Assembly (NCBI GenBank): GCA_037892935.1
Contig: JAYXKI010000020.1
Span: 248,001-312,000, forward strand
Direction: 5' to 3'
DNA length: 64,000 nt
Source of the DNA: Phlebopus portentosus
Taxonomy: Eukaryota; Basidiomycota; Agaricomycetes; Boletales; Boletinellaceae
In this document: positions 17,510-54,700 of the stretch, piece after piece
How the letters are laid out: each line of letters begins with the position of its first letter
How positions within the stretch are numbered: position 1 is the first letter of the stretch
Notes under the pieces: generated by a model
Database searches by the model: none
What the model was told of the DNA's origin: nothing
The model's input: the letters and a program-made list of their open reading frames with translations, nothing else
Program-made: the position numbers and the translations under genes

Positions 17510-17595
17510 TCAACAGCTCGGTCCACCAGGACCAAGGAGTGACTAAGGTCAACCAGTCGCCGAGCTGCCGACTTGCTCTTCTTGCGATGATCCGG

Positions 17596-18589
17596 TGTAG
17601 AGATACCTGCGGATTTGAGCTCGGATCTACTCTATTTGGACGATCTGACATGCCGATCATCAGAACGATCAACCTTGACCATATGTGGAAGGATCTGCAG
17701 TGTGGATCAGTAGGTTGTGCATTTACGGTTCAGCAGCCTTCTGTTCCCCTCCATCCAGCCTCACTCTCTATTGTCTACCCCTTTCAGGCGACAGGCTGTG
17801 ATGCAGATGACTTGGTTGGATGTCCATATTTACATTTTATTTGGTTTCTTTCCTTATTTATCTTCCTGAATCATGTTTCGAGCCTTTGTTGTATGGGTGG
17901 CTCACTACTGTATATAAGCCTCCTGTGCCGCTCTAATGAAAAGGGGAGAGCCCCAGAACGCCCCAGTTTCGACTCATATCATCTCCAGTCAAGTTCCCTA
18001 GTCTCCCAGCTTCGTCTTAGTCCGTTCCCTCGAGTTCCAGTCCAGTTCCGACAGTTGCACCAGTTGTGCATATACTCCAGCCCAGCAGATCGTCGATTTT
18101 GCTATACCTCCATCAGTTCTCCACCGATCACCTCGGTCCAGCATTCGTTCGATTCGTCTCATTGTTCTTCATCTTCGAGTATTTTCACCCACGAGTTCCG
18201 CAGAGTTCCGCTTCATTTAGCCAAGTTCCGATTTTACGATAGTTTTCCGATATCTTGTTCAGTCTGTATCTCCCTCATTTCTTATCCGTTCATTGTGATT
18301 CTTGATCTGTTAGGATTGTGTCGACGAGTACTTTTGATCTCTTATTTTACATCATCGTCTTAGCTAGCTAGTTTTCGACCTCAGAGTAGGTGGCTCAGTT
18401 TACACTTCCGACACGGCACCCTTTTGTATTTTGTTTCCCCCTTCTCTAAGCCATTCCCCTCGACACCAGCATACACTCCTCACATTTTAGACACTCCCTC
18501 TTACATTGTACACATCTGGTTGACCCCCAGAGGTCGAACTCAGACCTTCAGACTGTCAGTTGGCCTTCAGAGCCAGCAGACACGTTTCA
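17596..18589 (+). repeat. 5' LTR of gag-only element
   Basis: It starts TGTAGAGATACC and ends CACGTTTCA. A TATATAAG box at 17911-17918 is a likely promoter. The near-identity with the 3' LTR indicates recent insertion. Confidence 0.9.
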
Positions 18590-18592
18590 AAT

Positions 18593-18610
18593 TGGAGCCC
18601 ACGGCGAGGG
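18593..18610 (+). other. Primer-binding site of gag-only element
   Basis: TGGAGCCCACGGCGAGGG starts three bases after the 5' LTR. TGG pairs with the CCA end of a tRNA; I do not assign the isoacceptor. The identical 18-mer is at 40597-40614 in element II. Confidence 0.75.
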
Positions 18611-18677
18611 GGTCTCTATCTTTGTTTTTGGAGTGTTTCCCTTCTTTATTCTTCGTTTCTAGCCTTTCTCTTTCATT

Positions 18678-20345
18678 ATGCCCAGGTCCAGCCTTCGTGG
18701 TTCCTCTTCTGCCGCTTGCATGCCACTTTCTTATGCAGAAGGTGCCCCAGTATTTGATGGTTCGTCTCCAAGGCTTATTGGTCGATTCCTAGAGGATGTC
18801 GAGCTCCTCTGCATCGATGCTCAGCTCACAGACTCTGATAGAGTGCACTGGACAATTTATTATGCCTCCTTGGATGTTGCAGATCAGTGGTCTATGCTCC
18901 CAGAGGCGCTTGTATCAAGTCCTACTTGGTCCAGGTTTGTCACAGAGGTCCTAGAGCTTTATCCCGAGTACACAGATGCCAGACGAAGGTTCCAACCTGC
19001 AGATCTCGAAGATTTGGTCCAGAAGTCGGCAGCAGGTCCTATGAAGTCAGTACAGCAGTTGTACAGCTACTACAGGTCGTTCCTTCGAGTTTCCAAGCAT
19101 CTGGAAGCCCACCAGCGAATCACCTCGTTACAGTCGAACAGGCTCTTCATTCTAGGCCTCCCAGAGACGCTTCGATCCCTCGTTTTCAGCCGCTTTACCA
19201 TAAAGTACCCAGACAAGTACCCAGATGACGATTTTAGCATACAAGAGGTGCTATCAGCTGCAGAATTCGTTCTCCATAGAATTTCGGCGAGCCAGCCACA
19301 CAGGTTCGATGAGTTGGCTCCAGTACGATCCGAACGACCCCAGAATGGCATCGATCCGCCCAGTACTTCGATTTCCACAGCAGTTACAAGTCATTTGGTA
19401 CCTCAGTTGACATCCAGCGATGTTCCTCTTCATTCCCCCGTGTTCCCCTCGAGTTACGATGCCCCCCAGACATTGAAATCGACGTTGCGATGTGTTACGA
19501 ACGTTCCGACCAAGTTTCGCGCGTTCCGGTCACGTGCTAAGCGAGATCGAGGGGTTGCGACTTTGCCACTTGAAGCTGCACACAGAGCCTTAGACGCTAC
19601 TGTTTTCAGCTGTTTCTTTTGCAGTAGCCCTCGTCACCTCATCAGGGACTGTCCAGTAGTCGCCCAGTACGTCCAGGATGGTCGATGCAAGTGGAATTCA
19701 GCATACAAGATAGTTTTACCCAGTGGATTGCATGTTCCAGCAAGTTTTGGCAGTAATAACTTGCAGGAGAGGTTTGATTCGTTCTATGAAGCTTATCCTG
19801 AGCTTCTAGAGTCGTCTCCCAGTCCCCCTTCACCCCCCAGAGCCGCATCACCAGCTCCAGTGTCCATGGTTTCGAAGTCAGCACAGCAGCCAGCTTCTTT
19901 CAGGCACAGCTCTTCGTATGCTCCCAGTGCAGTAGTGCAACTTCTCCCCCCAGGCCAGTCTTCTCCCAAGCGCTTCTTGAAGCCATCCATTGCTTCTCAG
20001 TCGATCGTAGATCATACCTACTCGAGTTCCAGCCAGCCAGCTAGCGGTTTAGCCCCTAGGACAAATTTATCTTGCAAGAATCTCTCTAAGCATTGTATTG
20101 GTGGTAGTCCCAGTACATTACCTTCGATTAATTCGGTTGGAGCGGTTCTTCCAGTTTACTCTTGTTGTTTCGACTCTATGGCATCCCCCCCATCGCATTC
20201 CATGTATCCCAGGCCAGATTCACCATTGGAGTTCAGTTCTTCGACACCAGGCAGCTCTGACAGTTCAGTATCGAGCTTAGGTTCGTTCCAATGGAGTTCC
20301 ACGTCCTCCGATCGCGTTCCGACGCCCCTAGGCGAGTTGCGATAG
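18678..20345 (+). CDS. Gag polyprotein of gag-only retrotransposon
   Basis: This 555-residue frame starts at an ATG 68 nt after the primer-binding site. The N-terminal half is a retrotransposon capsid-like region: APVFDGSSPRL near residue 24, then LEDLVQKSAAGPMKSVQQLY and LFILGLPETLRSLVFSRF. A zinc knuckle with the spacing C-x2-C-x4-H-x4-C (CFFCSSPRHLIRDC) lies around residue 315. After it come IVLPSGLHVPASFGSNNLQE and a long Ser/Pro-rich tail. The fold order and the motifs after the knuckle parallel the Gag of element II (41136-43199), which continues into a protease that is absent here. It would form the particle and bind RNA, and enzymes must come from another element. Confidence 0.88.
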   Translation: MPRSSLRGSSSAACMPLSYAEGAPVFDGSSPRLIGRFLEDVELLCIDAQLTDSDRVHWTIYYASLDVADQWSMLPEALVSSPTWSRFVTEVLELYPEYTDARRRFQPADLEDLVQKSAAGPMKSVQQLYSYYRSFLRVSKHLEAHQRITSLQSNRLFILGLPETLRSLVFSRFTIKYPDKYPDDDFSIQEVLSAAEFVLHRISASQPHRFDELAPVRSERPQNGIDPPSTSISTAVTSHLVPQLTSSDVPLHSPVFPSSYDAPQTLKSTLRCVTNVPTKFRAFRSRAKRDRGVATLPLEAAHRALDATVFSCFFCSSPRHLIRDCPVVAQYVQDGRCKWNSAYKIVLPSGLHVPASFGSNNLQERFDSFYEAYPELLESSPSPPSPPRAASPAPVSMVSKSAQQPASFRHSSSYAPSAVVQLLPPGQSSPKRFLKPSIASQSIVDHTYSSSSQPASGLAPRTNLSCKNLSKHCIGGSPSTLPSINSVGAVLPVYSCCFDSMASPPSHSMYPRPDSPLEFSSSTPGSSDSSVSSLGSFQWSSTSSDRVPTPLGELR

Positions 20346-20612
20346 TGTTCCGATGCGCAACAATGCGTAACGATCGTAACGAGTGCTCAACCATGCAGAT
20401 TGGTTCAGTTTTGGTGTTTCTATGCAGGAATGTTTGTTTTCTCAAGATTTTCGACTCTCTTTCATACAACTCCTCGTTTAATTCGGTTTCTTTCGATCTC
20501 GGCTCGGTCCATGCACCATTCGACTCGCTCTATGCGCTTTCTCGAGGTTCCATATCTCCAAACTCACATCATCTGACGCTTCTACATGACAAATCGAAGT
20601 TTTGGGAGTTTG

Positions 20613-20630
20613 ATGACTGCGGACAGTCAT
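20613..20630 (+). other. Pre-3'-LTR hairpin, gag-only element
   Basis: ATGACTGCGGACAGTCAT is a perfect 7-bp stem with a CGGA loop, 20 bp before the 3' LTR. Element II has the same hairpin at the same place with the outermost pair changed from A-T to G-C. See the hairpin finding. Confidence 0.7.
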
Positions 20631-20650
20631 GATTTGAAGACCCCAGGAGG

Positions 20651-21643
20651 TGTAGAGATACCTGCGGATTTGAGCTCGGATCTACTCTATTTGGACGATC
20701 TGACATGCCGATCATCAGAACGATCAACCTTGACCATATGTGGAAGGATCTGCAGTGTGGATCAGTAGGTTGTGCATTTACGGTTCAGCAGCCTTCTGTT
20801 CCCCTCCATCCAGCCTCACTCTCTATTGTCTACCCCTTTCAGGCGACAGGCTGTGATGCAGATGACTTGGTTGGATGTCCATATTTACATTTTATTTGGT
20901 TTCTTTCCTTATTTATCTTCCTGAATCATGTTTCGAGCCTTTGTTGTATGGGTGGCTCACTACTGTATATAAGCCTCCTGTGCCGCTCTAATGAAAAGGG
21001 GGAGCCCCAGAACGCCCCAGTTTCGACTCATATCATCTCCAGTCAAGTTCCCTAGTCTCCCAGCTTCGTCTTAGTCCGTTCCCTCGAGTTCCAGTCCAGT
21101 TCCGACAGTTGCACCAGTTGTGCATATACTCCAGCCCAGCAGATCGTCGATTTTGCTATACCTCCATCAGTTCTCCACCGATCACCTCGGTCCAGCATTC
21201 GTTCGATTCGTCTCATTGTTCTTCATCTTCGAGTATTTTCACCCACGAGTTCCGCAGAGTTCCGCTTCATTTAGCCAAGTTCCGATTTTACGATAGTTTT
21301 CCGATATCTTGTTCAGTCTGTATCTCCCTCATTTCTTATCCGTTCATTGTGATTCTTGATCTGTTAGGATTGTGTCGACGAGTACTTTTGATCTCTTATT
21401 TTACATCATCGTCTTAGCTAGCTAGTTTTCGACCTCAGAGTAGGTGGCTCAGTTTACACTTCCGACACGGCACCCTTTTGTATTTTGTTTCCCCCTTCTC
21501 TAAGCCATTCCCCTCGACACCAGCATACACTCCTCACATTTTAGACACTCCCTCTTACATTGTACACATCTGGTTGACCCCCAGAGGTCGAACTCAGACC
21601 TTCAGACTGTCAGTTGGCCTTCAGAGCCAGCAGACACGTTTCA
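20651..21643 (+). repeat. 3' LTR of gag-only element
   Basis: 993 bp, TGTAGAGATACC to CACGTTTCA, preceded by the purine-rich ccccaggagg. The CCGG duplication follows at 21644. Confidence 0.9.
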
Positions 21644-39252: not shown

Positions 39253-40594
39253 TGTAAGAAGCATCGACACGCTAGGTCCGAGATCGCGCACGTGACACGT
39301 GTTCCGCGGTGATCCGCATCGTAACAGCGGAACTCGGTGCGGATCGATTCGATTCGAAGTGGAACGGACTACTGTAGCCTCTCGCACTCGACCGCTGCGT
39401 AGGAAGAACCTTCGGACGCTCGAGCCACCCAGTCGAAAACTTACAAAGGCTGACTTAGCTAGCTCGTCTTACTAAACCCAGGCACGAGAGGTAAATTGAA
39501 GGATCCGCAATCGGCCCCCGACACCTCCCAAGTTTCGACCCGACGCGACGCACTCCGGCTTTTCCCCTTTTTGAGTCCCATATGCGTTCATATTTTGTTT
39601 TGTTCCTTATGATTCTTATGCTCATTATTCCGTGTGCGCTCACATTTCGTATTATGCTCTATGGTCATTATCTCGCCACCTTCCAGATATGCTCACCTCG
39701 TACTTTGTTCCCGTGTGTTCCCTTATGATTTTCACTTCCGATTTCCTTTCGTTATGCTCCCTGACGCTCCGATGGCTCAGGTTCGGACAAAGTTATAAAT
39801 AGGCGAGCAACTTGTAGTAGGAGCCCAGTTTTAGCCCGGAGAGTTTTAGCAGAAAACAGTTTAGCTCGGGCTTGAACCCACTTTAGCTACAGTCGAGACC
39901 AATTCGACTCTTCCTGTACTCTCCTCGACTCTATCTCCCACAAATACACGATAGTTCTGTCTCATACGCCTCGAGTCTCCTGCTCTGCAGTCGTACCCGA
40001 GCCCAGTGTGATCAGTTCAACCCGTGTTGAAGTCGGAGACCCTCATCTCTCCTCCCTACGCCCCTACGCGAGGTCTCACTTGAGTCCCTTGCGTATCGCT
40101 TTGTTCCGCGTCGTATCGCTCCGTTTCGCTTCGTAACCCACCGAAACCCGTCGTAACTCGTCGTAACCCGTTATATCGTGTCGGATCCTCGAAAGGATCA
40201 CCTTCGAATCGTCAGCGCTTAGGGGAAGTCCTTCTCTAAGCTTCGTCTCATCGTCTTCCGCCTTCAGGGTTCGAATCCATCGAGGGATTACCTGTGAGGA
40301 CATCGATTACCTTCGCACCGCCACCGCCGATCCCCCCTTGCTTCGACTTCTCCCGCCTTGCTTCTTCGCCTATCTCCTTTAATCCAATCCCCCCTCGCAT
40401 ACATCCAGCCGCCTTCAATCCCATTTCTCCTCCATCCCTTCCGGAACTGCTCCGGAACCCAGATCGACGCATCAGCCCTTCTCTAGTTTTCCCCCCAAAG
40501 ATCACCCTTCTCTTTCCCACTCGTTTTAATCTTACCGAACAGCCCCCAAGAACTGTGACACTCCTCAGCTATCAGACAGTGCACAGGAGTTTCA
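39253..40594 (+). repeat. 5' LTR of element II
   Basis: 1,342 bp, TGTAAGAAGC to GGAGTTTCA. A TATAAAT box at 39794-39800 is followed by the CT-rich part. It shares the TGTA...TTTCA ends with the gag-only element but otherwise differs. Confidence 0.92.
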
Positions 40595-40596
40595 AG

Positions 40597-40614
40597 TGGA
40601 GCCCACGGCGAGGG
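40597..40614 (+). other. Primer-binding site of element II
   Basis: TGGAGCCCACGGCGAGGG starts two bases after the LTR and is identical to the site in the gag-only element. The tRNA was not assigned. Confidence 0.75.
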
Positions 40615-41135
40615 CGGAAATTCACTGTTCGTCCAAAACGAGTAACCAAACTCCAGGTAGTACTCGGACTACCCGAAGCCAATCAGCCCGTATCCCCGTA
40701 GTTCACCAAGCCTTACCCCAAGTCACACCTCGGACACCTAGGCAGAGGGCAAGCGCTAGAAGCACCACAGCATCGTCGCTAAGTTCTTCAGTAATTCAAC
40801 CTTCACCTCTGACCGAGTCCAGTACCCTACCATCGTTCGAGCCGTCGGCCGAATCGTCTCCTTTTAGTTTCCAAGAAACCGATCTACCTACCGAATTCTC
40901 CGAGCAAGAATCCTCGTCGCCTGAGGATATCACTGTTCGACTCGATTACCCAGACCCCGCTAGGCTCAGACAGCCTCAAACCTCCAATCAAGCGATCCAA
41001 GTCGATCCGCTTGCGCAACAGTCGCAACCAAGCGGATTAACTCTCGCTCACCACCTCCAAGGACTGGGAAGTAACCTGCAGATCCTTAACCAACTTCAGA
41101 CCAATTATCAGCAGTTGCAGCGTATATCGAACCAG

Positions 41136-43199
41136 ATGGCTGCAGTTAGACCACCTCTTCGAGGTGACAAGAGAGCACCAGTATTCGACGGTTCCGATCC
41201 GAAGGAACTGTTCCGCTTCTTCGACGACGTGGATGCGATCGCAATAGATTCCAACTGGGATGCGTCGACTACCATCAGACGTGGGTACCTGTACTATGCG
41301 AAGACTGACGTTGCAGAAGTATGGGAGACCCTCCCCGAAGTTTCTGCCGCCCCTGCGAGCGTCGGAGATTTCAAAACGGCCGTCAAGAAGCTTTATCCAA
41401 GTTTGGCAGACGGCAAGAGATACTCTAGGGGCGAATTGGAGCAGTTCATCGCCGAATGGACCGAAAAAGGTATTCACACCAGAGATGAATTCGGCACTTA
41501 TCATCGCGAGTTCCTACGCAGAGCCAGGTATCTAGTTACCAGCAACAAACTTACCGAGAACGACTCGAAATTCGCGTTTCTTCGAGGCATTTCGGGCCAG
41601 ACTAGGAAGGATATCCTGCAAAGGCTCGAAATCAAGGACCCGGACCACGAGAGGGGCGACCCCTACGACATCGAGAAAGTAGCAAACGCAGCTATGTACA
41701 TTCTTTCGGGATCCGCAGTCGATCAGATCGGATCCGACCCGATGAGCGGCGGAACGAGCGCAACGATGAGCGCGTCGTCGGGAGGACATGGAATGACCGT
41801 CAAGAAGGAAGAAACGGACTTGAGTAAAGTTTGGGAAACGCTGAAGGGTTTTCAGGTAACACTGGAATCGCTCACTAGAGGCCAGGGCCCTCGAATCGCA
41901 ACAGGTCCGCAACCGGCCCCATTGGCTCGCACGCCCGGATGTGCGTTCTGCAGCGATCCCGGCCACTTTATAAGGTCGTGCCCGAAGGTACTCGAGTATA
42001 TCCAGGCCGGAAAGTGTCTACGTGACTCGAACGGACGAGTAGTCATGCCAAACGGAGCCTTCGTATCGAGTAGGGTTTCGGGCCGGAACCTGATGGAGCG
42101 AATTGACAACTTGCTAAAGCCGAACCCGTCACATCCAGTCAACATCATCGAAGTCGCCGAGCACCCGGAAACCCCGGCCGAGCCGATAGCATCAGCTATG
42201 CTCCAGGAAATCGGCGAGGATCAGACAGAAGAGACCGATTACGAAGTAGAACGTTTAGAAATCTTGCTCAACGAGGCAAAGAAGAAAGCGGCGACTGGTA
42301 AAAGGCAGAAGTTCGACGGAGTAGTCATTCCGACAAAAGTGGGACCGCCGGGAAGAGGGGCTTCGAAGGCGCAGCAGTCGCCACCCCCTATTCCTAAGTC
42401 CCCGGCGGTTTCACGTTCGTCACCGCAGCGGGATGATATTAGAAAACCCTCGAACCCCCAACCCCAATACCGCTACGTAGTCCCCGTTGAAGATTCTAAC
42501 GCTGTCTCTAACGTGCTCACTCGGACGCTCGACACGAGCATTACGCTTAGCCAAAGGGAACTGTTATCGATCGCCCCCGAACTACGAAAGCAACTAAAGG
42601 AACTCACTACCGCAAAGAGATATAACACTGCCGATGTGAATCTCGTCGAATCGCCGAGTTACGCCATGCAACTGTGCGGAACCGCATCGCAACAACCTGA
42701 GGACTCGATTCTGTCCATCGGAACGTCGGGAGTGACCGCGGAAGCAACTCTCCCCCTTCGTACGATTACAGCCGTAGTGGAGGACGCGATGGAAGTGGAG
42801 TGCGTACTCGATCAAGGCGCAGCAGTGTGTCTGATTAGGGAAGACGTTTGGGAAAAACTTCAAGTGCCCCTATCACCGGACCAGAGCACGACCATCGAGA
42901 TGGCGGACACAGCGAAGTCGGCCACCGTGGGACTAATCCCGAACGCCAAGTTTACGATAGCCGGGATTGATCTTTCCCTGCAAGTGCATGTCGTTCGTCA
43001 GGCGCCGTTTCAGGCGCTACTCGGACGACCCTTCTTCGCAGTAACCGAATGCGAAACCAAGGATTATACCTCGGGAGACCAGCATATAACACTATCAGAC
43101 CCCAACGACAGGAATCGACATAGCAAGGTCGCGACTGGAATTCGGAACGTGTTGCGCAACGTTGCGCAACAGGGTTTTCAGCAGACGTCGAGGAACTGA
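41136..43199 (+). CDS. Gag-protease polyprotein of element II
   Basis: The start was chosen as the first ATG in frame. It gives MAAVRPPLRGDKRAPVFDG, which lines up with the start of the gag-only element's protein (APVFDG 13-24 residues in). The frame is open upstream to the primer-binding site (a Ser/Thr/Pro-rich stretch) but has no ATG there. The protein is 687 residues: a capsid-like region (LFRFFDDVDAIAI, YLVTSNKLTENDSKFAFLRG), a zinc knuckle CAFCSDPGHFIRSC near residue 269, a charged linker and an aspartic protease near residue 557 with DQG as the active-site triad (CVLDQGAAVCLI) and the partner LLGRPFF. It ends at TGA 43197-43199; pol follows in the -1 frame. Confidence 0.87.
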   Translation: MAAVRPPLRGDKRAPVFDGSDPKELFRFFDDVDAIAIDSNWDASTTIRRGYLYYAKTDVAEVWETLPEVSAAPASVGDFKTAVKKLYPSLADGKRYSRGELEQFIAEWTEKGIHTRDEFGTYHREFLRRARYLVTSNKLTENDSKFAFLRGISGQTRKDILQRLEIKDPDHERGDPYDIEKVANAAMYILSGSAVDQIGSDPMSGGTSATMSASSGGHGMTVKKEETDLSKVWETLKGFQVTLESLTRGQGPRIATGPQPAPLARTPGCAFCSDPGHFIRSCPKVLEYIQAGKCLRDSNGRVVMPNGAFVSSRVSGRNLMERIDNLLKPNPSHPVNIIEVAEHPETPAEPIASAMLQEIGEDQTEETDYEVERLEILLNEAKKKAATGKRQKFDGVVIPTKVGPPGRGASKAQQSPPPIPKSPAVSRSSPQRDDIRKPSNPQPQYRYVVPVEDSNAVSNVLTRTLDTSITLSQRELLSIAPELRKQLKELTTAKRYNTADVNLVESPSYAMQLCGTASQQPEDSILSIGTSGVTAEATLPLRTITAVVEDAMEVECVLDQGAAVCLIREDVWEKLQVPLSPDQSTTIEMADTAKSATVGLIPNAKFTIAGIDLSLQVHVVRQAPFQALLGRPFFAVTECETKDYTSGDQHITLSDPNDRNRHSKVATGIRNVLRNVAQQGFQQTSRN

Positions 43200-43214
43200 T
43201 ACTAAGACGTCAGC
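43172..43214 (+). promoter_or_regulatory. Predicted -1 frameshift signal, element II
   Basis: GGGTTTT (43172-43178) is in phase as G-GGT-TTT, 18 nt before the gag stop. GACGTC (43184-43189) can pair with GACGTC (43206-43211), extended by GC/GC across an A-A mismatch. The -1 frame is open from here to the pol ATG at 43325 and on. Confidence 0.6.
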
Positions 43215-43324
43215 GAGACGTAGGCGATTATTCATGTTCAAGCCTCAACAATACGTTTTCTATCTATTCTATTGATGTTTCCGACGCTTTCACCTCTCTA
43301 TTTAGTAACCAGCTTCGGAAGCTG

Positions 43325-46300
43325 ATGAAAGACCCAATGCGTTTCGCTACTGACTATTCAAATCGACCTTATAGATCATGTATTCTAGAGACCCCGGACG
43401 ACGACGACCCGGCGGTACTCATGTACAAACGCGTCGCTCAGAAAGTACGGCCCGTCCCCGGGGTACTACCAGAAGAATTTCGGATCGTTCGAAGGAGGCA
43501 TCCGAACCCGCTCGAAGGACTGTCCGAAATACCAAAGAAACCGAAACCGTTTACGCCCATAGGCAGACTTACGAAGGAGCGGTTTGAAGCCCTCAGGATT
43601 GACGAGAATCAGTTCTTATGGCCCGAAGAAAGGCTGCTAGTGGCTAACCTACTTATGCTGCAGGAAGGAGCACTAGCGTGGACGGAAGCGGAACGGGGTA
43701 GTTTCGATGCGCAATACTTCGATCCGATTCGCATCCCGACGGTACCGCATGTACCGTGGGTACACAAGAACATACCTATTCCTCCGGGTATTCTCGAGCG
43801 TACCATCAACCTGATTCGCGAGAAAATCAAGAATGGAGCCATTGAACCGTCTAACTCCTCGTACCGATCACGATGGTTTTGCCTAGTCAAGAAAGATGGA
43901 GTCTCCCTTCGATTTATACTCGACCTGCAAGACATGAATGGCGTTTCCGTCCGAGACTCAGCCGTTCCGCCGAATATAGAGACCATTGCGGAGCGTTGCG
44001 GCGGACGAAGTTGTTATTCGAGCCTCGATTTCTATGTGGCTTTTGACCAGCGAGTTCTAGACGAACGCTCTCGAGATCTCACGACATTTCAGACTCCCTT
44101 GGGAACGTTCAGAATGACGGTTCTCCCGATGGGATACACGAATTCCCTTCAGATTATGCACAATGACGTCGCTTTCATCCTACAAGACGAGATTCCGCAC
44201 TGTACCGATCCGTATGCAGACGATTCGCCCGGATTAGGTCCCAAAACGCGCTACGAACTCCCGGATGGCTCTTACGAAACCCTGCCAGAGAATCCAGGGA
44301 TTAGGCGATTTATTTACGAGCATATATGCGACGTAAATCGAATTTTGCAGCGAGTCAAGGCAGTGGGAGGGACGTACTCAGGAAAGAAAATGGAGATCGG
44401 CGTTGAGTCAATCGTATTTCTCGGACACAAACTGACATATTACGGACGAGAGCCAGACGAATCGAAAGTCCAGAAGGTCAGTGACTGGCCGCCATGCCGA
44501 TCCGTAACCGAAGTCAAAGGATTCCTCGGAACAGTGGGAGTCCTGCGAATTTTCATTAAGGATTTCGCCAAGATAGCACGCCCCCTCAATCGACTCACTC
44601 GGAAGAACAACATTTTCGATTGGACAGACGAAGAACAGGAATCAATGAACGAGTTGAAAGAAGCGGTCATTAGGTGTCCAGCTCTATGCGCAATAGACTA
44701 TCAATCGGAACTCGAAGTTGTACTTGCGGTGGATTCGTCGATTATCGGAGTAGGATGGTATTTGGGTCAAGAACACGTAGATGGACGAAGAAGGATTAAT
44801 CGCTTCGGTTCCATAAACTGGAATGCCACGCAAGCAACATACTCCCAACCGAAAATCGAACTTTACGGACTATTTCGTACGTTACACGCCATGCGACTAT
44901 ATCTCATCGGAGTGCGCAAGCTTGTCGTAGAAATGGACGCAGCATACATCAAAGGCATGATTAACAACCCGGACTTACAACCAAACGCTACGATCAACCG
45001 CTGGATCGCCGGGATACTTCTATTCGACTTCGAGATTCGCCACATCCCGGCGGCAAACTTCAAATGCACCGACGGACTTTCTCGACGACCCCCGGCACCC
45101 GAAGATCCACCTCCGGACAAAGGATACGAAGAGTGGATAGACGACACGTATGGATTCTACATCGAAAACCCAGTTACGACGTATTGCGCAGACTTACGTG
45201 CGCGCAACCAAGCGAAACGACTCCCATCGAGCCCTGGAAATGCGCAAGCAACTCTCGGATCAGTAGGATACCTCGAGGGCTCGAACAGTAAACGCCGGAA
45301 GGGAAACGGCAGCTCTGACTTCCCGAAGATGACTGACATCGCGTTGACCTTGTTTCCCAGCTCCGAGAGAGCTAACCCAAAAGATGCTCGCTTGGATCAC
45401 GTCAAGAGCTTCTTGATCGGCCAGAAGCGACCGGATCAGTTAGACGATCGTGGCTATGCAGCGCTGATCAGGTACGCGGCAAATTTCTTCGCTAGAGACG
45501 GACGTTTGTGGAAGAAGGTGCGGAACGGACGACACCAGGTCGTAATCGAACCGGAACGCAGATGGAACCTCGTAAAGCAAGCGCATGACGATCTAGGCCA
45601 CAAGGGAGTATACTCTGTTCGAATTCGACTCCTGGAACGATTTTGGTGGCCTACCCTCGGTCCAGACGTCAAATACTACGTGCGCACCTGTCATGAGTGC
45701 CAAGTTCGCCAGACGAAGAACATTCTAATTCCCCCGGTCGTACCAACAATACCATCGATTTTCCAGCGCATACACATCGACACCAAGGTAATGCCGAAGT
45801 CTGGAGGATACCGGTACATCGTACAAGCCCGATGCGCTTTATCCGGTTACCCCGAATTTCGACTCTTGCGCGAAGAAACCGGCAAAGCGATAGCCCAGTT
45901 CATTTTCCAAGACCTCCTTTGCAGATACGGCGCTTGTCCCGAGCTCGTAACAGATAATGGGAAACCGTTCATCGCAGCACTCGATTACCTCAAGAATCGA
46001 TATCACATCAATCACATACGCATCTCAGCATACAACTCTCGCGCTAATGGAATTGTAGAAAGACGCCACTACGATGTGCAGGAAGCCCTGATAAAGGCTG
46101 TAGACGGTAATGACAAACGATGGAGCGACCAAGCTTACTCAGTATTTTGGGCAGAAAGAATCACCATCCAGAAGGCGACCGGAATGTCCCCGTATTACAT
46201 GGTACACGGAGTAGAGCCTATTCTACCTTTCGACCTCGCCGAAGCCACGTACTTAGCCCCCCCGGTCGATACGCCTGTTCCGACTGCGGAACTCATCGCA

Positions 46301-46912
46301 ACTCGCGCGAAGCAGCTCCAGAAGCGTCCTGAGGAACTGGATCGAATCGCCAGACTAGTTTCCGATGCCCGGCATGCATACGCGCGACAATTCGAAGAGA
46401 TCAACAAGGCCAAAATCAAAGACTACGATTTCCAGCCAGGACGACTCGTATTGTTGCGAAATACGCGCATCAAAATGGAACTTAATCGCAAGACGAAGCC
46501 CCGATACCTAGGACCCTACGTGGTAGTACGCAAAACAAAGGCCGGTTCATATGTCATTGCGGAACTCGACGGATCAGTCTCGAAGATCCGAGTAGCTGCG
46601 TTTCGCCTGATTCCTTACTTTCCTCGTTCGAATCTCTCTGTACCCGTTACTAAACTCGTAAACGCAGCAGATGACGAACTCGAGGACGACGCCAACCCCC
46701 AATCGAACCAGAAGAAGACGACGTTTCCGACGCCCAGTCGGAATCTCAAAACCTCAACTTATAAACACCATTCAGTTCTGATACCTTCCATGCAAACCAC
46801 TGACATTCTTCTTCTATTAGATCCTTTCGATTATTCGTTTCATTTCATTCCTCTCCCGATTTTCCTCTCAATTTTTCCTTCCTTCGAATTATTCGCGCTC
46901 AACCGCATTTAG
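43325..46912 (+). CDS. Pol polyprotein of element II (RT, RNase H, integrase)
   Basis: 1,195 residues from the first ATG in frame. The frame is also open upstream to 43172 in the -1 phase of gag, so the natural product is probably a Gag-Pol fusion. The RT begins near residue 155 (IREKIKNGAIEPSNSSYRSR), with FLDxxDLQDMNG-type motifs and the catalytic PYADDSPG near 296. RNase H follows with AVDSSIIGVGWYLG (about 466) and KIELYGLFRTL. The integrase has an HHCC finger (HDDLGHKG, CHECQ; 757-797) and the acidic triad in IHIDTK, VTDNGKPF and GIVERRHY (about 817, 876, 911), with a GPYVVVRKTKAGSY segment near the end. No stop or frameshift is seen. The C-terminal tail is low-complexity. Confidence 0.92.
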   Translation: MKDPMRFATDYSNRPYRSCILETPDDDDPAVLMYKRVAQKVRPVPGVLPEEFRIVRRRHPNPLEGLSEIPKKPKPFTPIGRLTKERFEALRIDENQFLWPEERLLVANLLMLQEGALAWTEAERGSFDAQYFDPIRIPTVPHVPWVHKNIPIPPGILERTINLIREKIKNGAIEPSNSSYRSRWFCLVKKDGVSLRFILDLQDMNGVSVRDSAVPPNIETIAERCGGRSCYSSLDFYVAFDQRVLDERSRDLTTFQTPLGTFRMTVLPMGYTNSLQIMHNDVAFILQDEIPHCTDPYADDSPGLGPKTRYELPDGSYETLPENPGIRRFIYEHICDVNRILQRVKAVGGTYSGKKMEIGVESIVFLGHKLTYYGREPDESKVQKVSDWPPCRSVTEVKGFLGTVGVLRIFIKDFAKIARPLNRLTRKNNIFDWTDEEQESMNELKEAVIRCPALCAIDYQSELEVVLAVDSSIIGVGWYLGQEHVDGRRRINRFGSINWNATQATYSQPKIELYGLFRTLHAMRLYLIGVRKLVVEMDAAYIKGMINNPDLQPNATINRWIAGILLFDFEIRHIPAANFKCTDGLSRRPPAPEDPPPDKGYEEWIDDTYGFYIENPVTTYCADLRARNQAKRLPSSPGNAQATLGSVGYLEGSNSKRRKGNGSSDFPKMTDIALTLFPSSERANPKDARLDHVKSFLIGQKRPDQLDDRGYAALIRYAANFFARDGRLWKKVRNGRHQVVIEPERRWNLVKQAHDDLGHKGVYSVRIRLLERFWWPTLGPDVKYYVRTCHECQVRQTKNILIPPVVPTIPSIFQRIHIDTKVMPKSGGYRYIVQARCALSGYPEFRLLREETGKAIAQFIFQDLLCRYGACPELVTDNGKPFIAALDYLKNRYHINHIRISAYNSRANGIVERRHYDVQEALIKAVDGNDKRWSDQAYSVFWAERITIQKATGMSPYYMVHGVEPILPFDLAEATYLAPPVDTPVPTAELIATRAKQLQKRPEELDRIARLVSDARHAYARQFEEINKAKIKDYDFQPGRLVLLRNTRIKMELNRKTKPRYLGPYVVVRKTKAGSYVIAELDGSVSKIRVAAFRLIPYFPRSNLSVPVTKLVNAADDELEDDANPQSNQKKTTFPTPSRNLKTSTYKHHSVLIPSMQTTDILLLLDPFDYSFHFIPLPIFLSIFPSFELFALNRI

Positions 46913-47337
46913 ACCCTCGGAAAAGTGTTCGCGCAAACCGAGATACGCGTTCAACCGCGTGTTCACCTTCATGCGCTTAGTTGCGAATCGCAACCCGGCG
47001 TAGCGCTGCGCAAAACAGCGCAACTAGCTTATTTTTCTCTCAGTCCTTTCGACTCAATAATCACCGCTTGTTTTCTCTAATCTCTCATTTTCTCATATCT
47101 CAATCCTCATTCTTCCATTATTCTTCGACCTCGCCTCATTTACCTTCACCCCAAACGTCAAAACCGCAAACAAAAATTCATAACATTCAAAAACGCACAA
47201 AAACTATATATACAAAAGTTCAAATTATTTTTTTCTTTTTCTTCTTTTTCTTTGTTTTTTTCGTCCCATGAGGGGACACTAGACGAAAAGCGTCGTTTTT
47301 GACGCACTCTACCCCCTCTCCTCACTCCTCTTACTCC
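46913..47337. other. Convergent 3' region between pol and antisense gene
   Basis: Non-coding and A- then T-rich, with a long pyrimidine run near 47229-47266. It probably holds the 3' ends of both the sense pol and the antisense transcripts. Confidence 0.4.
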
Positions 47338-49258
47338 TTACTCTTCCTCCTCACCCCTTACCACCCTTCCTAGCGCACTGGTCTCGGCCAGCATCTCCTC
47401 CGCTAGGTTGCGCAGTTGATCCGCAGCGCGGAACAACACGCGCGCGCGCCTCTCCAAGGCCGCCATCCGGAAATGGACGGCGCTCTCGTCCGTCCCGGCG
47501 ACCAACTCCTCGATGTCACTCACCTCGAGGACAGGCGCAACCGGCATCCTCAGCACCTGCGCCGTTGCGCGCTGACGAGCTTCGCGCGTCTCGCGTTCCA
47601 CCTGCTCGTTCCGCAGGCGACGCGCAGCCCTCCCGTGCGTAGCCAGCTCGCATCGCCGCCTGGCCTTCGTGCGGCAGTAATCACAGGCCTGCCCAGGGAA
47701 ACCCTCACAGACCCGGCCTGTCCTCGCGCACCTCTCACACCCCTCATCATGCACGACCCAGCCACCAGCAGACGAATTGCTGCTGCTGCTGCTACTGCTG
47801 CTGCCGTCCCCGCCATCGCCTTGGCTTCCCTCATCCTCTTCCATTCGTTCTGCACTCGGAGACTCGCTCGCAGCCGGAGGATTGCTGTTGCTGCTGTTGC
47901 TCTCGCTGACAGCACCGTCCGGAAGAAAGAGGGGCGCTTCGTCAAAAGCCCCAAAGTCGTCATCTCCAGCCGGACCCCCAGAAGAGAAACCGTTGGCAGC
48001 AGAAGGAATGTTGCTGCTGCTGTTGTTGCAGTTCCCCTCTACCGACTCCTCGTCGCTCGAATAATCGACAATCCGAGGCCGCTTCGTGGGCCTCTCATCT
48101 CTCTCGCGATCCGAAGACGGCGACGGAACCCTGACCGCGCTTGCCATCTTCTCCAGCTCGCTCAAGTACGAAACTCGGTCCGCACGATCTTCCAGCTCGC
48201 TGATGACGGATTCCCGCTCCACCTGACTCAAGTCTTGACGACCCAGCAGCGTCCTGAGGGCAGACTCGGTCAATTCGGATATACCCGACGAAAAGGGGCC
48301 CGATCCGCCGAGATGCGCGTCGGAACGCAGCGCAACGAGGGCGTCTGCGGCTTTGACCGAGCACGGGCAGCACTTCTCCTCATACGCAGTCCAGCACCGC
48401 AGGGCCTCGTGGACGTGACTCTTCAGCGGCGCTGAGAGGAGGATTCCCCGGATCTCCGCCCAAGCGAGCCACCCGAATTCGGTCCAGACGTCGTCAATCT
48501 CTGTGCCGGGAGGACGACGACCGACCCAAAACATCCGCCATAGCTAGAAGTTCAACAGTTAGCAAGATTTGAAGAAGAAGCGAGAATGAGCACTCACCTG
48601 GTCCAGATCGATCTTCATGACCGTGTTCTCCAGCTCGTCCTTCCTTTCGTCGAAATGGCCAACCAGTGGCCGTAGCAGATCGCGGTGACGACCGATCGCC
48701 CCTTCTAGACCGGTCAAACCCGCGCGCCATTGCTGAACGTAGACTTCGGTGTCCGGCTTCGAACGCTTTTCGTCCTCGAGGTACGAAGCCTTGAGCGCAT
48801 CGAGCTGGTCGCAGTTGATGTTGAGGGTTGCGCAACGATCCGCAAGCGCAACCACGCTTTCCGCCCAGAAACGCGCGGCATACGGCGGCCACATCAAATC
48901 GATGGGCACCCACTCGGGCCGAAGGTCCTCGAGTCTCTTTCTCGCAGTCTATGAAGTTCAGGAAGTCGGAACGGAACGAAGAGAATAGATGAAGACAGAA
49001 TAGAAAGCGCACCTGGATCTCACGCATTTCCTCCGCCCTCTCAACGGACTGCGCAACGGTCATCCTCACGAACCATCTCTGATCCACGTCCTCGTGCAAA
49101 CGCTCGATGACCTGGACCTGGTTTCCGACACCGTAAAGCCACGTATCGCTGAACACGAAGCCCTCCGCTGAGACAGGGATCTCGTCGAACAGCAGCTGTT
49201 GTTGCTGCTGTTGCGGTTGTTGCTGTTGTCGCTGTTGTTGTTGCTGTTGTTGGGACAT
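47338..49258 (-). CDS. Antisense three-exon gene within element II, Zn2Cys6-like cysteine cluster
   Basis: The ATG at 49258 opens a Gln-rich start (MSQQQQQQQRQQQQPQ). Three exons join in phase 0 through canonical introns: 49258-49013, 48948-48598 and 48543-47338, giving 600 codons. Both introns are GT-AG (54 and 64 nt). Exon 2 contains RPEWVPIDLMWPPYAARFWA. Exon 3 starts LWRMFWVGRRPPG, carries Ser/Asn/Asp-rich acidic stretches and a KRPRIVDY basic patch, and then CERCARTGRVC...CDYCRTKARRRC. That spacing (C-x2-C-x6-C-x7-C-x2-C-x7-C) is like a fungal binuclear zinc cluster, although the basic residues lie in the second half. It is inside the LTRs, so it moves with the element. A nuclear regulatory role is inference. 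Confidence 0.75.
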
Positions 49259-49354
49259 GACGGAGAGAAGAGAGGATAGATGAACGGAACGCGTCGCGAA
49301 CCGCGTTTTACGCGTCAAGAATCTAGAGACGCCGAGTCTAACCCTATTGGGAGT

Positions 49355-49372
49355 GTGACTGCGGACAGTCAC
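49355..49372 (+). other. Pre-3'-LTR hairpin, element II
   Basis: GTGACTGCGGACAGTCAC is a perfect 7-bp stem with a CGGA loop, 20 bp before the 3' LTR. It has the same loop and the same position as in the gag-only element. Confidence 0.7.
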
Positions 49373-49392
49373 GATTTCAAGAAACCGGGAGA

Positions 49393-50735
49393 TGTAAGAA
49401 GCATCGACACGCTAGGTCCGAGATCGCGCACGTGACACGTGTTCCGCGGTGATCCGCATCGTAACAGCGGAACTCGGTGCGGATCGATTCGATTCGAAGT
49501 GGAACGGACTACTGTAGCCTCTCGCACTCGACCGCTGCGTAGGAAGAACCTTCGGACGCTCGAGCCACCCAGTCGAAAACTTACAAAGGCTGACTTAGCT
49601 AGCTCGTCTTACTAAACCCAGGCACGAGAGGTAAATTGAAGGATCCGCAATCGGCCCCCGACACCTCCCAAGTTTCGACGCGACGCGACGCACTCCGGCT
49701 TTTCCCCTTTTTGAGTCCCATATGCGTTCATATTTTGTTTTGTTCCTTATGATTCTTATGCTCATTATTCCGTGTGCGCTCACATTTCGTATTATGCTCT
49801 ATGGTCATTATCTCGCCACCTTCCAGATATGCTCACCTCGTACTTTGTTCCCGTGTGTTCCCTTATGATTTTCACTTCCGATTTCCTTTCGTTATGCTCC
49901 CTGACGCTCCGATGGCTCAGGTTCGGACAAAGTTATAAATAGGCGAGCAACTTGTAGTAGGAGCCCAGTTTTAGCCCGGAGAGTTTTAGCAGAAAACAGT
50001 TTAGCTCGGGCTTGAACCCACTTTAGCTACAGTCGAGACCAATTCGACTCTTCCTGTACTCTCCTCGACTCTATCTCCCACAAATACACGATAGTTCTGT
50101 CTCATATGCCTCGAGTCTCCTGCTCTGCAGTCGTACCCGAGCCCAGTGTGATCAGTTCAACCCGTGTTGAAGTCGGAGACCCTCATCTCTCCTCCCTACG
50201 CCCCTACGCGAGGTCTCACTTGAGTCCCTTGCGTATCGCTTCGTTCCGCGTCGTATCGCTCCGTTTCGCTTCGTAACCCACCGAAACCCGTCGTAACTCG
50301 TCGTAACCCGTTATATCGTGTCGGATCCTCGAAAGGATCACCTTCGAATCGTCAGCGCTTAGGGGAAGTCCTTCTCTAAGCTTCGTCTCATCGTCTTCCG
50401 CCTTCAGGGTTCGAATCCATCGAGGGATTACCTGTGAGGACATCGATTACCTTCGCACCGCCACCGCCGATCCCCCCTTGCTTCGACTTCTCCCGCCTTG
50501 CTTCTTCGCCTATCTCCTTTAATCCAATCCCCCCCTCGCATACATCCAGCCGCCTTCAATCCCATTTCTCCTCCATCCCTTCCGGAACTGCTCCGGAACC
50601 CAGATCGACGCATCAGCCCTTCTCTAGTTTTCCCCCCAAAGATCACCCTTCTCTTTCCCACTCGTTTTAATCTTACCGAACAGCCCCCAAGAACTGTGAC
50701 ACTCCTCAGCTATCAGACAGTGCACAGGAGTTTCA
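49393..50735 (+). repeat. 3' LTR of element II
   Basis: 1,343 bp and near-identical to the 5' LTR (one extra C in a C-run plus about three substitutions). It is followed by the ACGT duplication. Confidence 0.92.
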
Positions 50736-50739
50736 ACGT

Positions 50740-51334
50740 CAACCATCGACAATCGGACTGGGCGGACTGGCTAGCTCTCGCAGAGTTTGCGCACAACAAT
50801 CGTGAACATTCGGCGACCAAACTATCACCCTTCTTCGTCAACACGGGACAACACCCTTCAGACTTCACGGGCGTTGGAACGACTTCGTCCAATCTATCGG
50901 CAGAAGAGTTTGCCAAACATGTCAAGGGAATACACGAACTCACTCAGGCCAATCTGACTCAGGCCAATGAAGACATGAAGCGCTTTTACGATCGTCACGC
51001 CGGGAAATCGATAGTCTATGAGATGGGACAAAAGGTCTTCTTAGATGGTCGAAACATAAAGACAATCCGACCGACGAAGAAGATGGATGACAAATGGTTT
51101 GGCCCATTCGAGGTTATGGAAAGGGTGGGCGCGAGCGCATATAAGCTAAAGATCCCGAAGACATGGAAACACGTTCATCCCGTCTTTAACGAGATCCTGC
51201 TCAAACCGGCCGTTCAACCGTCTTTCGAATCACAAAAGAAGCCGCCTCCACCCCCACCAGTGATCATTGACGAACAAGAAGAGTACGAGGTTGAAGAAAT
51301 ACTCGACTCACGTCTACATCGAGGAAGGCTCCAG
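50740..51334 (+). pseudogene. Pol of chromovirus III, part 2
   Basis: It resumes right after the ACGT duplication with NHRQSDWADWLALAEF (integrase C-terminal part), then the GPY/F-like DDKWFGPFEVMERVGASAY and the start of the chromodomain (EYEVEEILDSRLHRGRLQ). It is cut at 51334 by element IV. Confidence 0.9.
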
Positions 51335-51735
51335 TGTTAGGCGGACAGCTCAAGGACTGAGTCGAGGCAGGCCAACACAACAACAAACAAGCGTGAATGA
51401 GATAATCCCAAACACGTCGCTCAGGTCAAGACAGCTAAGACGAGGCTTAAGTCCAGACCGTCGAACGCTAGGTCGCAGTGAAGGTAAGTAGAATAAAAAG
51501 ACAAGGAACGAAAGAGTCAAACTATCTACTTATATAGACTTTGGGCGTGGGAAAGGTCTACCCTAATGGGAAGTCACATGACAAGGAATGGGATAATTAG
51601 TAAGCGTGATAGAACATTGTGGAATGTTCCGGCAAAAGGATGAATAAGCGCATAAGAAAAATAAAAGAAAAGAAAAAGAATATTAAAATAAATGGTGACG
51701 TCAGAAAAGAAAAGGAAAATGTTCGAGTCCTTACA
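51335..51735 (-). repeat. 3' LTR of chromovirus IV
   Basis: 401 bp. On the minus strand the pol stop codon TGA (51738-51736) abuts the LTR start TGTAAGG, and the purine run AAGGGGGGG just before it is the polypurine tract. Its copy of the start-site 11-mer has one change (gaataaaaagac). Confidence 0.9.
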
Positions 51736-54700
51736 TCACCCCCCCTTCAAGGTTGGGCGTCCCGACCAACCACATAAGCCTTCTGAGGACGTGAACTTGT
51801 ACAGCGCTCGCAGGCTTTGTCGAGGTATCGTTAACTTCCTTGGAGCTCCAGGATGTTTGCGGTAGAATTCTTGAATTGACTCCTGCGCATTATCCTTGAC
51901 GTCGGATTCTGGCTGCCAAGTCGCTTCCTCATATCCAACCCACTTGACCAAGAATTGGAGCTTGCCTCGATGCAGACGCGAGTCGAGTATTTCTTCAACC
52001 TCGTACTCTTCCTGCTCATCAATGATCACTGGCGGTGGTGGAGGTGGTTTCTTCTGCGATTCAAAGGACGGTTGGACGGCTGGTTTGAGCAAGATCTCAT
52101 TGAAAACTGGATGGACCTTCTTCCAGGTCTTCGGTAGTTTGAGTCTGTATGCGCTTGCGCCAACCTTTTCCACTACCTCGAAGGGACCGAACCATTTATC
52201 ATCCATCTTCTTCATCGGTCGGATCGTCTTGATATTTCGTCCATCTAAGAAGACTTTCTGCCCTGCCTCATAGGTAATGGACTTCCCAGCATGGCGGTCG
52301 TAGAAACGCTTCATGTCTTCGTTTGCTTGGGTTAGGTTACCTTGAGCGAGTTCGTGCACCTCCTTGACATGTTTGGCAAATTCTTCTGCTGACAGGTTCG
52401 ATGATGCCGTTCCAACCCCCGTGAAGTCTAAGGGGTGCATTCCCGTATTGACGAAGAAGGGAGATAGCTTCGTCGCTGAATGTTCACGATTGTTGTATGC
52501 GAATTCTGCGAGAGCCAGCCAGTCCGCCCAGTCCGACTGCCGATGGTTGACGTATAGCCGCAGGTACTGTTCTAGTTCCTGATTAACCCGCTCTGTCTGT
52601 CCGTCAGTTTGTGGGTGATACGCTGTCGATGGGTTGCCTTCAATGTGGAGGAGCTTGTACAACTCCTTCATCATCTTTGCGTCGAATTGCACCCCTCGGT
52701 CATGAATGATCTTCCGTGGTAGTCCGTGTAATCGGAAGACATGGTCTCTGTAGATCCTAGCCATGCCTTCCGCCGATAACTTTGTCGTTGTTGGAATTGC
52801 ATGGATTTGTTTGCTAAAGCGATCGACCACTACGCAAATCGCATTGAACCCATTCGATTCTGGCAACTCTCCGATTAGGTCGACCGTGACAATCTGCCAT
52901 GGCGCCTCCGGCACCTCATTAGGGTGCAAAACCTTTGCTCTCGTTGTCCTTAGAGCCTTCGTCCGCTGACAACGATCACACCCCCGCACGTACACCCGCA
53001 CATCTGCACTCATCCTCGGCCACCAGTACCTGCGTGCTATCAGCTGGATCGTCTTTGTTGCTCCTGGATGTCCTGCCAGGGTCGAGTCATGGTGTTCCTT
53101 CATGACGTCCTCTCTGATGCTCGCTGGTACATATAGTCGGTGGCCCTTTCTCCACATGTCCCCTCTCTTCTCGACGTCCTTCGGCCTCACTCCCTCGTCC
53201 TCTTGTCTCTGCGCTTCCACAACCTTTTCAACGAGTACTTCTCTTGACGTCTGAACCATTCCTCTAACCAGCCATTCCTTCTTGATGAAAGTCACATTCT
53301 CATTATCGCGCTTGCCCTTGTCATAATCCGCCCGGCGTGACAACAGATCAGCTTTTCCCAACGTCTTTCCGGGTTTATGGACTAGCGTGAAATCGAACTC
53401 AGCTAAATCGAGTCGCCAACGAGCTTGTCGACGATTTAACTTCTGCGGTGATCGGAAGTACGTTAGATTTGCATGGTCTGTCCATACCTCAAAAGGTTGG
53501 TTAGCTCCCTGGAGATATTGTCGCCATTCCTTTAGGGCTTGAACGATGGCGAGCATTTCCTTGTTGTAAATCTCATAGTTTCGCTCTGCCTCTAGGAATG
53601 TTGACGACCGATAAGCGATCACCTTCCATTTACCGTCTTGTTTCTGAAGAAGGACTCCACCAGTCGCAAAGTCCGACGCATCTGCTTCTACACGGAAAGG
53701 GTCCTCGTTGTTGGGTATCGCTAACACGGGAGGACTACTCAAACGACGCTTCAATTCCTCAAATGCTGCCTGCTCATCTTCGCCCCATTTCCATTCCACC
53801 TTACCCGTTAGGGTAGTCAAGGGTTTGACGACCGAACTGTAATCCTTAACAAAACGTCGCAACCAATTTCCTAATCCCAGGAATTGTTGCAGTTCGTGGA
53901 CGTTCCTTGGAACTGGCCAGTCCTGTACTGCTGCCGTCTTCTTGGGATCCATTCGAACTTCACCATTGCCAATAATGTGCCCGAGGTACTTGACTGTATC
54001 AACTTCGAACTCGCACTTCTGCGGCTTTAGGAAAAGTCCGTTTTGGCGAAGGATCTCAAAGACTCGTTTAGTGCGTCTGCGGTGTTCTTCTAGATCATTC
54101 GAGAAGATGAGAATGTCATCGAGGTAAATGATGACGATACCCTCATGAATTAGCTCCCGAAAGATGTCATTCATAAAGCCTTGGAACGTCGCTGGCGCAT
54201 TACACAAGCCAAAGAACATGACCGTGGGTTCGAATAAGCCTAGATTTGTCCGGAACGCTGCCTTCCACTCGTCTCCCTCGCGAATCCGGATGTTGTAGTA
54301 TCCCCAACGAACGTCGAGCTTCGTGATGTACCTTGCATCCTTAACCTTGTCGATGAGCTCATTTATCAGTGGCAACAGGTATTTGTTCTTGACCGTTCCT
54401 TCATTGAGCTTTCGATAGTCTTGGATTGCTCGTAAGCTCCCATCCTCTTTCTTGATAAAGAAGAATGGTGACGCCATTGGAGACTTCGACTGTCGGATAC
54501 GTCCTGATGCTAGGTTTTCCTCAATGAACTCTCTCATCGCTTCTTGTTCTTTTGGCGATAACGGGTAAACCTTGCAGTCACTGGGTTTGAAATCCGGTTT
54601 CAGGTCAATAGCGTGGTCCCACGTTCGGTGGTTTGGTAAGCGTTCGAACGATTCCTCACTAAAGACGTCGGTGTATTCCTCCAGGTAAGGTGGCCATTTT

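Follow-up and report, generated by a model that had tools for sequence, protein, structure and literature searches.

The question raised by this locus is whether a long reading frame on the minus strand, lying between pol and the 3′ LTR of a retrotransposon, is a gene of that element and, if so, what its product could do. The window, i.e. the whole 64-kb stretch of DNA that was analysed, contains a Ty3/gypsy-like element, called element II below, with the following layout and neighbourhood.

39253-50736: element II, a young Ty3/gypsy-like LTR retrotransposon
39253..40595, plus strand: 5′ LTR of element II, 99.7% identical to the 3′ LTR (3 mismatches and 1 gap in 1344 columns), sitting in the integrase region of another element
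40596..43199, plus strand: gag-like ORF with protease, PF13352 (DUF4100) and PF13650 (aspartyl protease) above cut-offs
43325..46912, plus strand: pol ORF (RT, RNase H, integrase), PF17921, PF17919 and PF17917 above cut-off
49393..50736, plus strand: 3′ LTR of element II
51736-55560: chromodomain-bearing Ty3/gypsy pol (Pfam)

Element II has the LTRs, the gag and the RT-RNase H-integrase order of pol that define a Ty3/gypsy element. The pol families that pass the Pfam cut-off are those of RNase H and of the zinc-binding part of integrase; RVT_1 stays at 26.9 bits, just under its cut-off of 29.6, the Pfam integrase core PF00665 has no match in the pol ORF, and zinc knuckle families score below the Pfam cut-offs in the gag-like ORF. 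The element into which element II inserted is split in its integrase region: reading of the frames shows that its ORF ends at 39295 and resumes within 50498-51340. Judged by eye, this split element resembles the one with the chromodomain pol at 51736-55560.

The minus-strand frame and its parts are these.

49258-47338, minus strand: antisense gene, 600 codons in three exons, between pol and the 3′ LTR
49013..49258, minus strand: exon 1, 82 codons, poly-Gln
48949..49012, minus strand: intron 1, 64 nt, phase 0, GTGCGC..TCATAG, GT/AG in 19/19 copies examined, junction fitted by protein P0001
48598..48948, minus strand: exon 2, 117 codons
48544..48597, minus strand: intron 2, 54 nt, phase 0, GTGAGT..GCTAAC..TTCTAG (GCTAAC being a branch-like site), GT/AG in 19/19 copies examined, junction fitted by P0001
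47338..48543, minus strand: exon 3, 401 codons, coding for the acidic Ser/Asn tracts, the zinc cluster and the helical C-terminus
47650..47739, minus strand: zinc cluster CX2CX6CX7CX2CX7C, residues 468-497

The first-pass annotation of this DNA had proposed such a three-exon gene, with a poly-Gln start, acidic Ser/Asn regions and a cysteine cluster, and our analysis confirmed its coordinates, its introns and each of these protein features. The gene occupies the place and orientation of an antisense accessory ORF, between pol and the 3′ LTR and opposite to gag-pol. An open frame by itself is weak evidence for a gene, because the frame stays open with 82 GT/AG combinations over the ranges tested. 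A protein search, in which the best 7995 candidates by shared words were scored, gave P0001, an annotated Sanghuangporus sanghuang protein 97% identical to the antisense protein, which matches the sequence expected across both junctions and is without a further 23-residue stretch of exon 1. This protein is a prediction, and we treated all the annotated Sanghuangporus proteins used here (P0001-P0005) as predicted models; the ACEPAx-named annotations seem, from the part of PMC12001456 that describes them, to belong to a set of four genomes that were repeat-masked and then annotated with BRAKER3, ACEPAI being S. weigelae. What takes the gene beyond chance is a selection test together with protein homology in a second element family, and on these sequence grounds it behaves as a real gene of element II.

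A DNA search of the 38.4 Mb assembly with the antisense gene listed 50 matches, and among these 19 cover the gene completely or almost completely at 95-100%. We examined 21 loci, the window and 20 others, and left two out of the frame count, L024, which has a different 5′ end, and L028, in which the gene is split; the 19 copies counted comprise all but one of the 19 near-full copies and, in addition, L027, which is 89% identical and misses the first 182 nt. The antisense frame is intact in 12 of them, has one premature stop in 2 and is frameshifted in 4, L027 being incomplete. Frames broken in most copies while pol stays intact, an outcome that the first-pass annotation had held to speak against the gene, were not what we found, since pol is open at full length in only 5 of the same 19 copies, though it must be kept in mind that pol is about twice as long. 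The GT and AG of both introns are present in all 19, which bears out the expectation that introns are kept in a gene antisense to the RNA that is reverse transcribed. A search with pol, in which the best 39 of 916 candidates were scored, yielded a list in which 19 belong to the window family and 20 to a second one. Among the pol copies listed, the antisense gene is found in most of each family: it lies within 9 kb of pol in 18 of the 19 of the window family (three of the 18 genes being internally shortened, and one of these three 7.2 kb away), the copy listed without it being C8:1544508, and it accompanies pol in 20/20 of the sister family. Shortened antisense genes were seen at G000:C8:1634609, C15:1250892, C7:2050559 and C16:464789, where the poly-Gln start abuts the sequence from the Ser/Asn tract onward; they arose perhaps by template switching between CAG/CAA repeats.

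The dN/dS ratio among copies, a check suggested at the outset, lies at 0.16-0.49 in the 13 pairs that were compared. A low dN/dS can also result from CpG decay, so selection was assessed by redistributing the observed changes over sites with the same mutation type and CpG context. The 310 distinct changes in the antisense frame then include 129 synonymous ones versus 112.2 expected (P 0.019), and the excess is found in the 102 changes common to at least two copies (50 synonymous versus 36.9 expected, P 0.005). The 99 singletons outside L027 have 35 versus 35.3 expected (P 0.58) and the 109 changes private to L027 have 44 versus 39.8 (P 0.24); tests of single copies against the window gave P 0.07-0.43 in 5 out of 9. 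The other two frames of the antisense strand show no synonymous excess (81 versus 102.0 expected, and 88 versus 88.1). As a yardstick, pol was treated in the same way in 18 copies (L024, L027 and L028 were left out): 55 of its 100 shared changes are synonymous versus 32.1 expected (0/1000), and its singletons have 85 synonymous changes versus 72.0 expected (P 0.04). The pattern in the antisense gene fits selection acting in the mobile lineage and ending after insertion, with the reservation that neutrality after insertion is not clean for pol, because its singletons also show a small synonymous excess. The introns diverge less than synonymous sites (6/118 versus a dS of 0.23, in L027), which may be due to their fewer CpGs, 6.3 and 1.9 per 100 nt as compared to 10.5 in the exons.

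The second line of evidence comes from the sister family, the pol of which is 76-79% identical (about 78%) to that of the window family over about residues 7-622. Where the antisense gene lies, the DNA similarity between the window element and the two sister members sampled is reduced to one 30-nt stretch of CAG/CAA type. The sister elements nevertheless have an antisense gene in the same place, coding for a protein of 730 aa that starts with MFTSEE..., with two exons of 87 and 125 codons followed by a long third one, and with introns of 52 and 47 nt, both in phase 0. The protein contains poly-Gln, acidic Asn/Asp tracts and CDQCQKRGRDCVGLPQRTCAPCLKQAKGCSLATKGRA. The full model is taken from L029; the same model in L030 halts after 274 aa. 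In all 20 sister pol copies listed, the cluster lies 1978-1983 nt from the pol match, and the sister C-terminus has 94 matches in the genome, 66 of them 77-100% identical. From the cluster to the C-terminus, the window and sister proteins align with a score of 143, the maximum of 500 shuffles being 68; with the cluster part removed, the score is still 82 versus a shuffle maximum of 63 (500 shuffles). No alignment better than that of shuffles was obtained between window and sister for the first two exons and the beginning of exon 3; for exon 1, 497/500 shuffles score equally well and for exon 2, 215/500, and we therefore rejected homology of these two exons across the families.

Four of the predicted proteins belong to the sister type: P0002 and P0003 (S. 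sanghuang), P0004 (S. weigelae) and P0005 (S. baumii). Both sister junctions fit P0003, P0004 and P0005 (the last shifted by one residue at the first junction), and the second fits P0002. The models differ in that P0002 has a late start, P0003 is without part of exon 1 and P0005 without parts of exon 3. Identity among P0003-P0005 is 88-96% in the block formed by the cluster and the basic residues, 81-89% in the C-terminus and 65-81% in the other parts. This suggests that five ‘hypothetical proteins’ of Sanghuangporus, P0001-P0005, are transposon genes. Our protein searches, which found 8 proteins in all and reach proteins sharing 5-residue words, gave no relatives outside Sanghuangporus; the gene may be present more widely than that.

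The key domain of the protein is the cluster. The Zn2Cys6 class (PF00172) has the cysteine spacing CX2CX6CX5-12CX2CX6-8C, to which both the window cluster and that of the sister family (CX2CX6CX6CX2CX6C) conform. The initial designation as a zinc-cluster protein thus holds in the sense of a zinc-cluster-like protein with Zn2Cys6 spacing, but canonical membership in the class had to be rejected: the curated cut-off of PF00172, a profile of 39 positions, is 21 bits, and it was reached by no protein or piece tried (window, sister, host gene described below, and halves), while 27 other places in the genome pass it. The best scores, 18.0 bits for the host cluster and 17.2 bits for the sister cluster, were obtained with the first half of each, which matches positions 14-31 and 16-35, respectively, i.e. 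the second half of the profile. The whole sister cluster scores 13.0 bits in the ordinary register, and neither the second halves of the sister and host clusters, nor the window protein, nor either window half gave any PF00172 match. Taking the order of the cluster halves in Gal4 as reference, these partial matches are a suggestion that the basic half comes second, as if the halves were swapped. In the window protein, basic residues follow the cluster, and beyond them long helices are predicted. Structure prediction of the cluster, also proposed in the first-pass annotation, was carried out on the C-terminal 152 residues (AlphaFold2, 7 sequences): the model has a mean pLDDT of 77.6 and a pTM of 0.32, with long helices after the cluster. 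A fold search with it returned 4 matches in the PDB and 6 among viral structures, none at E 0.001 or better; a sequence search of the PDB gave nothing relevant, and NCBIfam gave no match for the three proteins.

The genome-wide search with the sister cluster also matched C3:2959530 (E 0.03), which lies in a gene of the host; the same search gave a weak match at C18:558776.

G000:C3:2958952-2960132 (L043/L037): host gene with homologous zinc cluster

As modelled, this gene codes for 357 aa in three exons, with introns in phases 0/0. It has relatives of 352-374 aa in S. sanghuang, S. vaninii and S. weigelae, and its residues 135-235 are 100% identical to a protein of S. sanghuang. Taken with the 97% identity of P0001, this suggests that the wood-decay mushroom analysed is S. 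sanghuang or a near relative. We consider it single-copy because the back search, with 80 matches, gave itself, 78 places already known from the sister search (best E 8e-6) and one further place, C19:108165 (E 0.1). When the cluster was shuffled with its cysteines fixed, 0/1000 shuffles reached the window-sister, the sister-host or the window-host score, and a profile comparison of host and sister gave E 8.7e-5 and a probability of 60 over 48 columns with 27% identity. Homology between host gene and element is therefore supported at the sequence level over the cluster only. The two clusters would have a common origin, and either direction can be envisaged, capture from the host or gift to it; the host gene is a possible donor or a domesticated copy.

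The DNA between the start of the antisense gene and the 3′ LTR, as well as another element of the window, hold candidate cis signals.

49259..49392, minus strand: region upstream of the antisense gene, with ACGCGT at 49289 and 49310 and a CT-rich stretch before the ATG
49355..49372, no strand assigned: palindrome/hairpin GTGACTG-TCCG-CAGTCAC, adjoining the presumed polypurine tract, the sister family and the gag-only element showing paired changes
49379..49392, plus strand: presumed polypurine tract AAGAAACCGGGAGA, directly preceding the 3′ LTR, a similar block being present in three element families
17594..21643, plus strand: gag-only element, LTRs 17594-18589 and 20649-21643, hairpin 20613-20630

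The hexamer ACGCGT, which we take to be the binding site of the fungal cell-cycle factor MBF, occurs 7 times in the whole 64 kb, twice in these 134 bp outside the LTR. At least two occurrences in the upstream region were obtained in 7 of 3000 shuffles, and in 3 of 3000 for the corresponding region of the sister copy L029, which has two as well; L030 and several older copies of the window family have one or none. The 3′ LTR had been put forward as the promoter of the antisense gene; with conserved boxes in the 134 bp outside it, a promoter belonging to the gene itself is at least as likely. The palindrome reads GTGACCG-TCCG-CGGTCAC in the sister family and ATGACTG-TCCG-CAGTCAT in the gag-only element, so that the changes across the three families hit both arms and pairing is kept. 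With at most one mismatch, it has 106 matches in the genome versus 10 for the reversed pattern, many of the 106 being copies of these families; in the 64-kb window, four matches with at most three mismatches are not above chance (8/100 shuffles), and the case for the motif consequently rests on the genome-wide count and on covariation. It folds as a hairpin in the sense RNA (z -2.7, -2.4 and -1.8) and could act either in DNA, as a site, or in RNA, as a hairpin for plus-strand priming. The gag-only element, presumably non-autonomous, has an ORF at 18678-20345 related to the gag of element II (28% over 398, E 1e-42), six gag matches in the genome and a PBS nearly the same as that of element II, and its copies are 81% like element II over 53 nt at the hairpin-polypurine block.

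How these pieces may work together can be outlined as follows. The antisense accessory gene of this Ty3/gypsy-like element would be transcribed from what is probably a promoter of its own, situated in the DNA that separates the polypurine tract from the ATG, and the transcript would be spliced twice and translated into a zinc-cluster protein. This protein would bind zinc and DNA, and we regard it as most likely a regulator that works in the nucleus and in trans on element copies. What it targets can only be guessed: the antisense promoter from which it is itself expressed, the 3′ LTR next to it, or a related step, for example entry into the nucleus or integration. A nuclear zinc-cluster regulator acting in trans is the best-supported reading, and we would put its chances at about even: the cluster with its basic residues and predicted helices, the acidic and poly-Gln tracts and the parallels with Grande and Retand speak for it, while the absence of any zinc-cluster match above the Pfam cut-off, the lack of a fold match and the pTM of 0.32 speak against it. 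A more elaborate version, which we hold to be rather doubtful, is a two-part circuit consisting of a host-derived, spliced zinc-cluster protein with swapped halves and of the hairpin/palindrome as its cis site, used also by the gag-only element. If true, it would amount to Tat/HBZ-like control in a mushroom transposon, built from a host transcription factor.

The same hairpin lends itself to another explanation, namely that the antisense protein acts after transcription, on the RNA of the element, particle assembly or nuclear transport, in the manner of Rev or of a nucleocapsid, with the hairpin as its RNA site. A conserved CGGA-loop hairpin in the sense RNA of three families, with paired stem changes, would be accounted for in this way, as would its presence in the gag-only element, which has no room for an antisense gene; but the cluster spacing and the half-match indicate a DNA-binding family, and the hairpin could serve plus-strand priming without any antisense protein, so we regard this explanation as unlikely. 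It is still less likely that the gene is a captured host gene carried as a passenger, useful to the host or to nobody. The single-copy host gene, with its homologous cluster, three exons and phase 0/0 introns, speaks for this, yet a passenger should hardly be kept beside 20/20 sister and 18/19 window-family pol copies listed (three of the 18 being shortened), nor bear a sign of selection. One may also suppose that the antisense RNA matters rather than the protein, through pairing with genomic RNA, silencing or competition, the frame being incidental, as has been proposed for other retrotransposon antisense regions in the sections of PMC7264820 considered here. A protein conserved between families almost without DNA similarity, and the synonymous excess among shared changes, make this highly improbable. 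Finally, long frames do occur on both strands of GC-rich DNA, and the antisense frame could be a shadow of the overlapping sense ORF 47416-48435, whose 341-342 codons are open in 14 of the 21 loci scanned. Here the probability is close to nil: the sister-family homologue is the antisense frame, a synonymous excess is seen in neither of the other two frames of the antisense strand, and we rejected a chance ORF in view of the conservation of the antisense protein in the sister family.

The antisense gene bears on two general questions about LTR-retrotransposon antisense genes, their origin and their function. Both become testable in the present system, because it offers a cellular homologue of the key domain, two strongly diverged families, a conserved cis motif and a small domain. 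Antisense ORFs had been noted by the first-pass annotation as known from plant gypsy elements, and rightly so, but they are known in fungi too: the parts of the review PMC7264820 used here name Grande, RIRE2, Retand and PvRetro13, and Boty for fungi. The same plant review states there that genes similar to antisense accessory genes are lacking outside transposons. In the literature searched, at the level of titles and abstract openings, we found no spliced zinc-cluster antisense gene with a cellular homologue in fungal retrotransposons; the kind of protein encoded, the fact that both families have introns, the cellular counterpart of the cluster and the cis motif seem to be new.

As far as the sources excerpted here go, the plant Ty3/gypsy antisense ORFs (Grande gene23, RIRE2, Retand, PvRetro13) have the same place and orientation as the present gene and occur in most copies; antisense TRP28 protein is encoded by 97% of Retand clusters (PMC11963269). 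Grande is also alike in having a promoter upstream of its antisense gene and a protein reported to be nuclear, and Retand TRP28 is predicted to bind DNA (PMC11963269, PMC7264820). The differences are that those ORFs belong to another kingdom and code for other proteins, mostly TRP28 in Retand, whereas the cluster found here has a cellular homologue. Closer in taxonomy is brtn (cited in PMC8365987), the antisense gene of Boty-like elements of Botrytis cinerea: it is likewise an antisense gene in a fungal LTR element, though of an ascomycete, and we liken it by description. With the Gal4-class Zn2Cys6 proteins (PF00172), the antisense protein shares six cysteines with fitting spacing, a basic stretch, and acidic and poly-Gln tracts; it differs in that its cluster is under the Pfam cut-off and near the C-terminus, and in that, for the sister and host clusters, it is the first half that aligns with the profile's second half. 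HBZ of HTLV-1, the product of an antisense retroviral gene and a nuclear regulatory protein according to the relevant part of PMC11963269, is different again, the present protein having a zinc cluster, and the likeness is one of working mode only.
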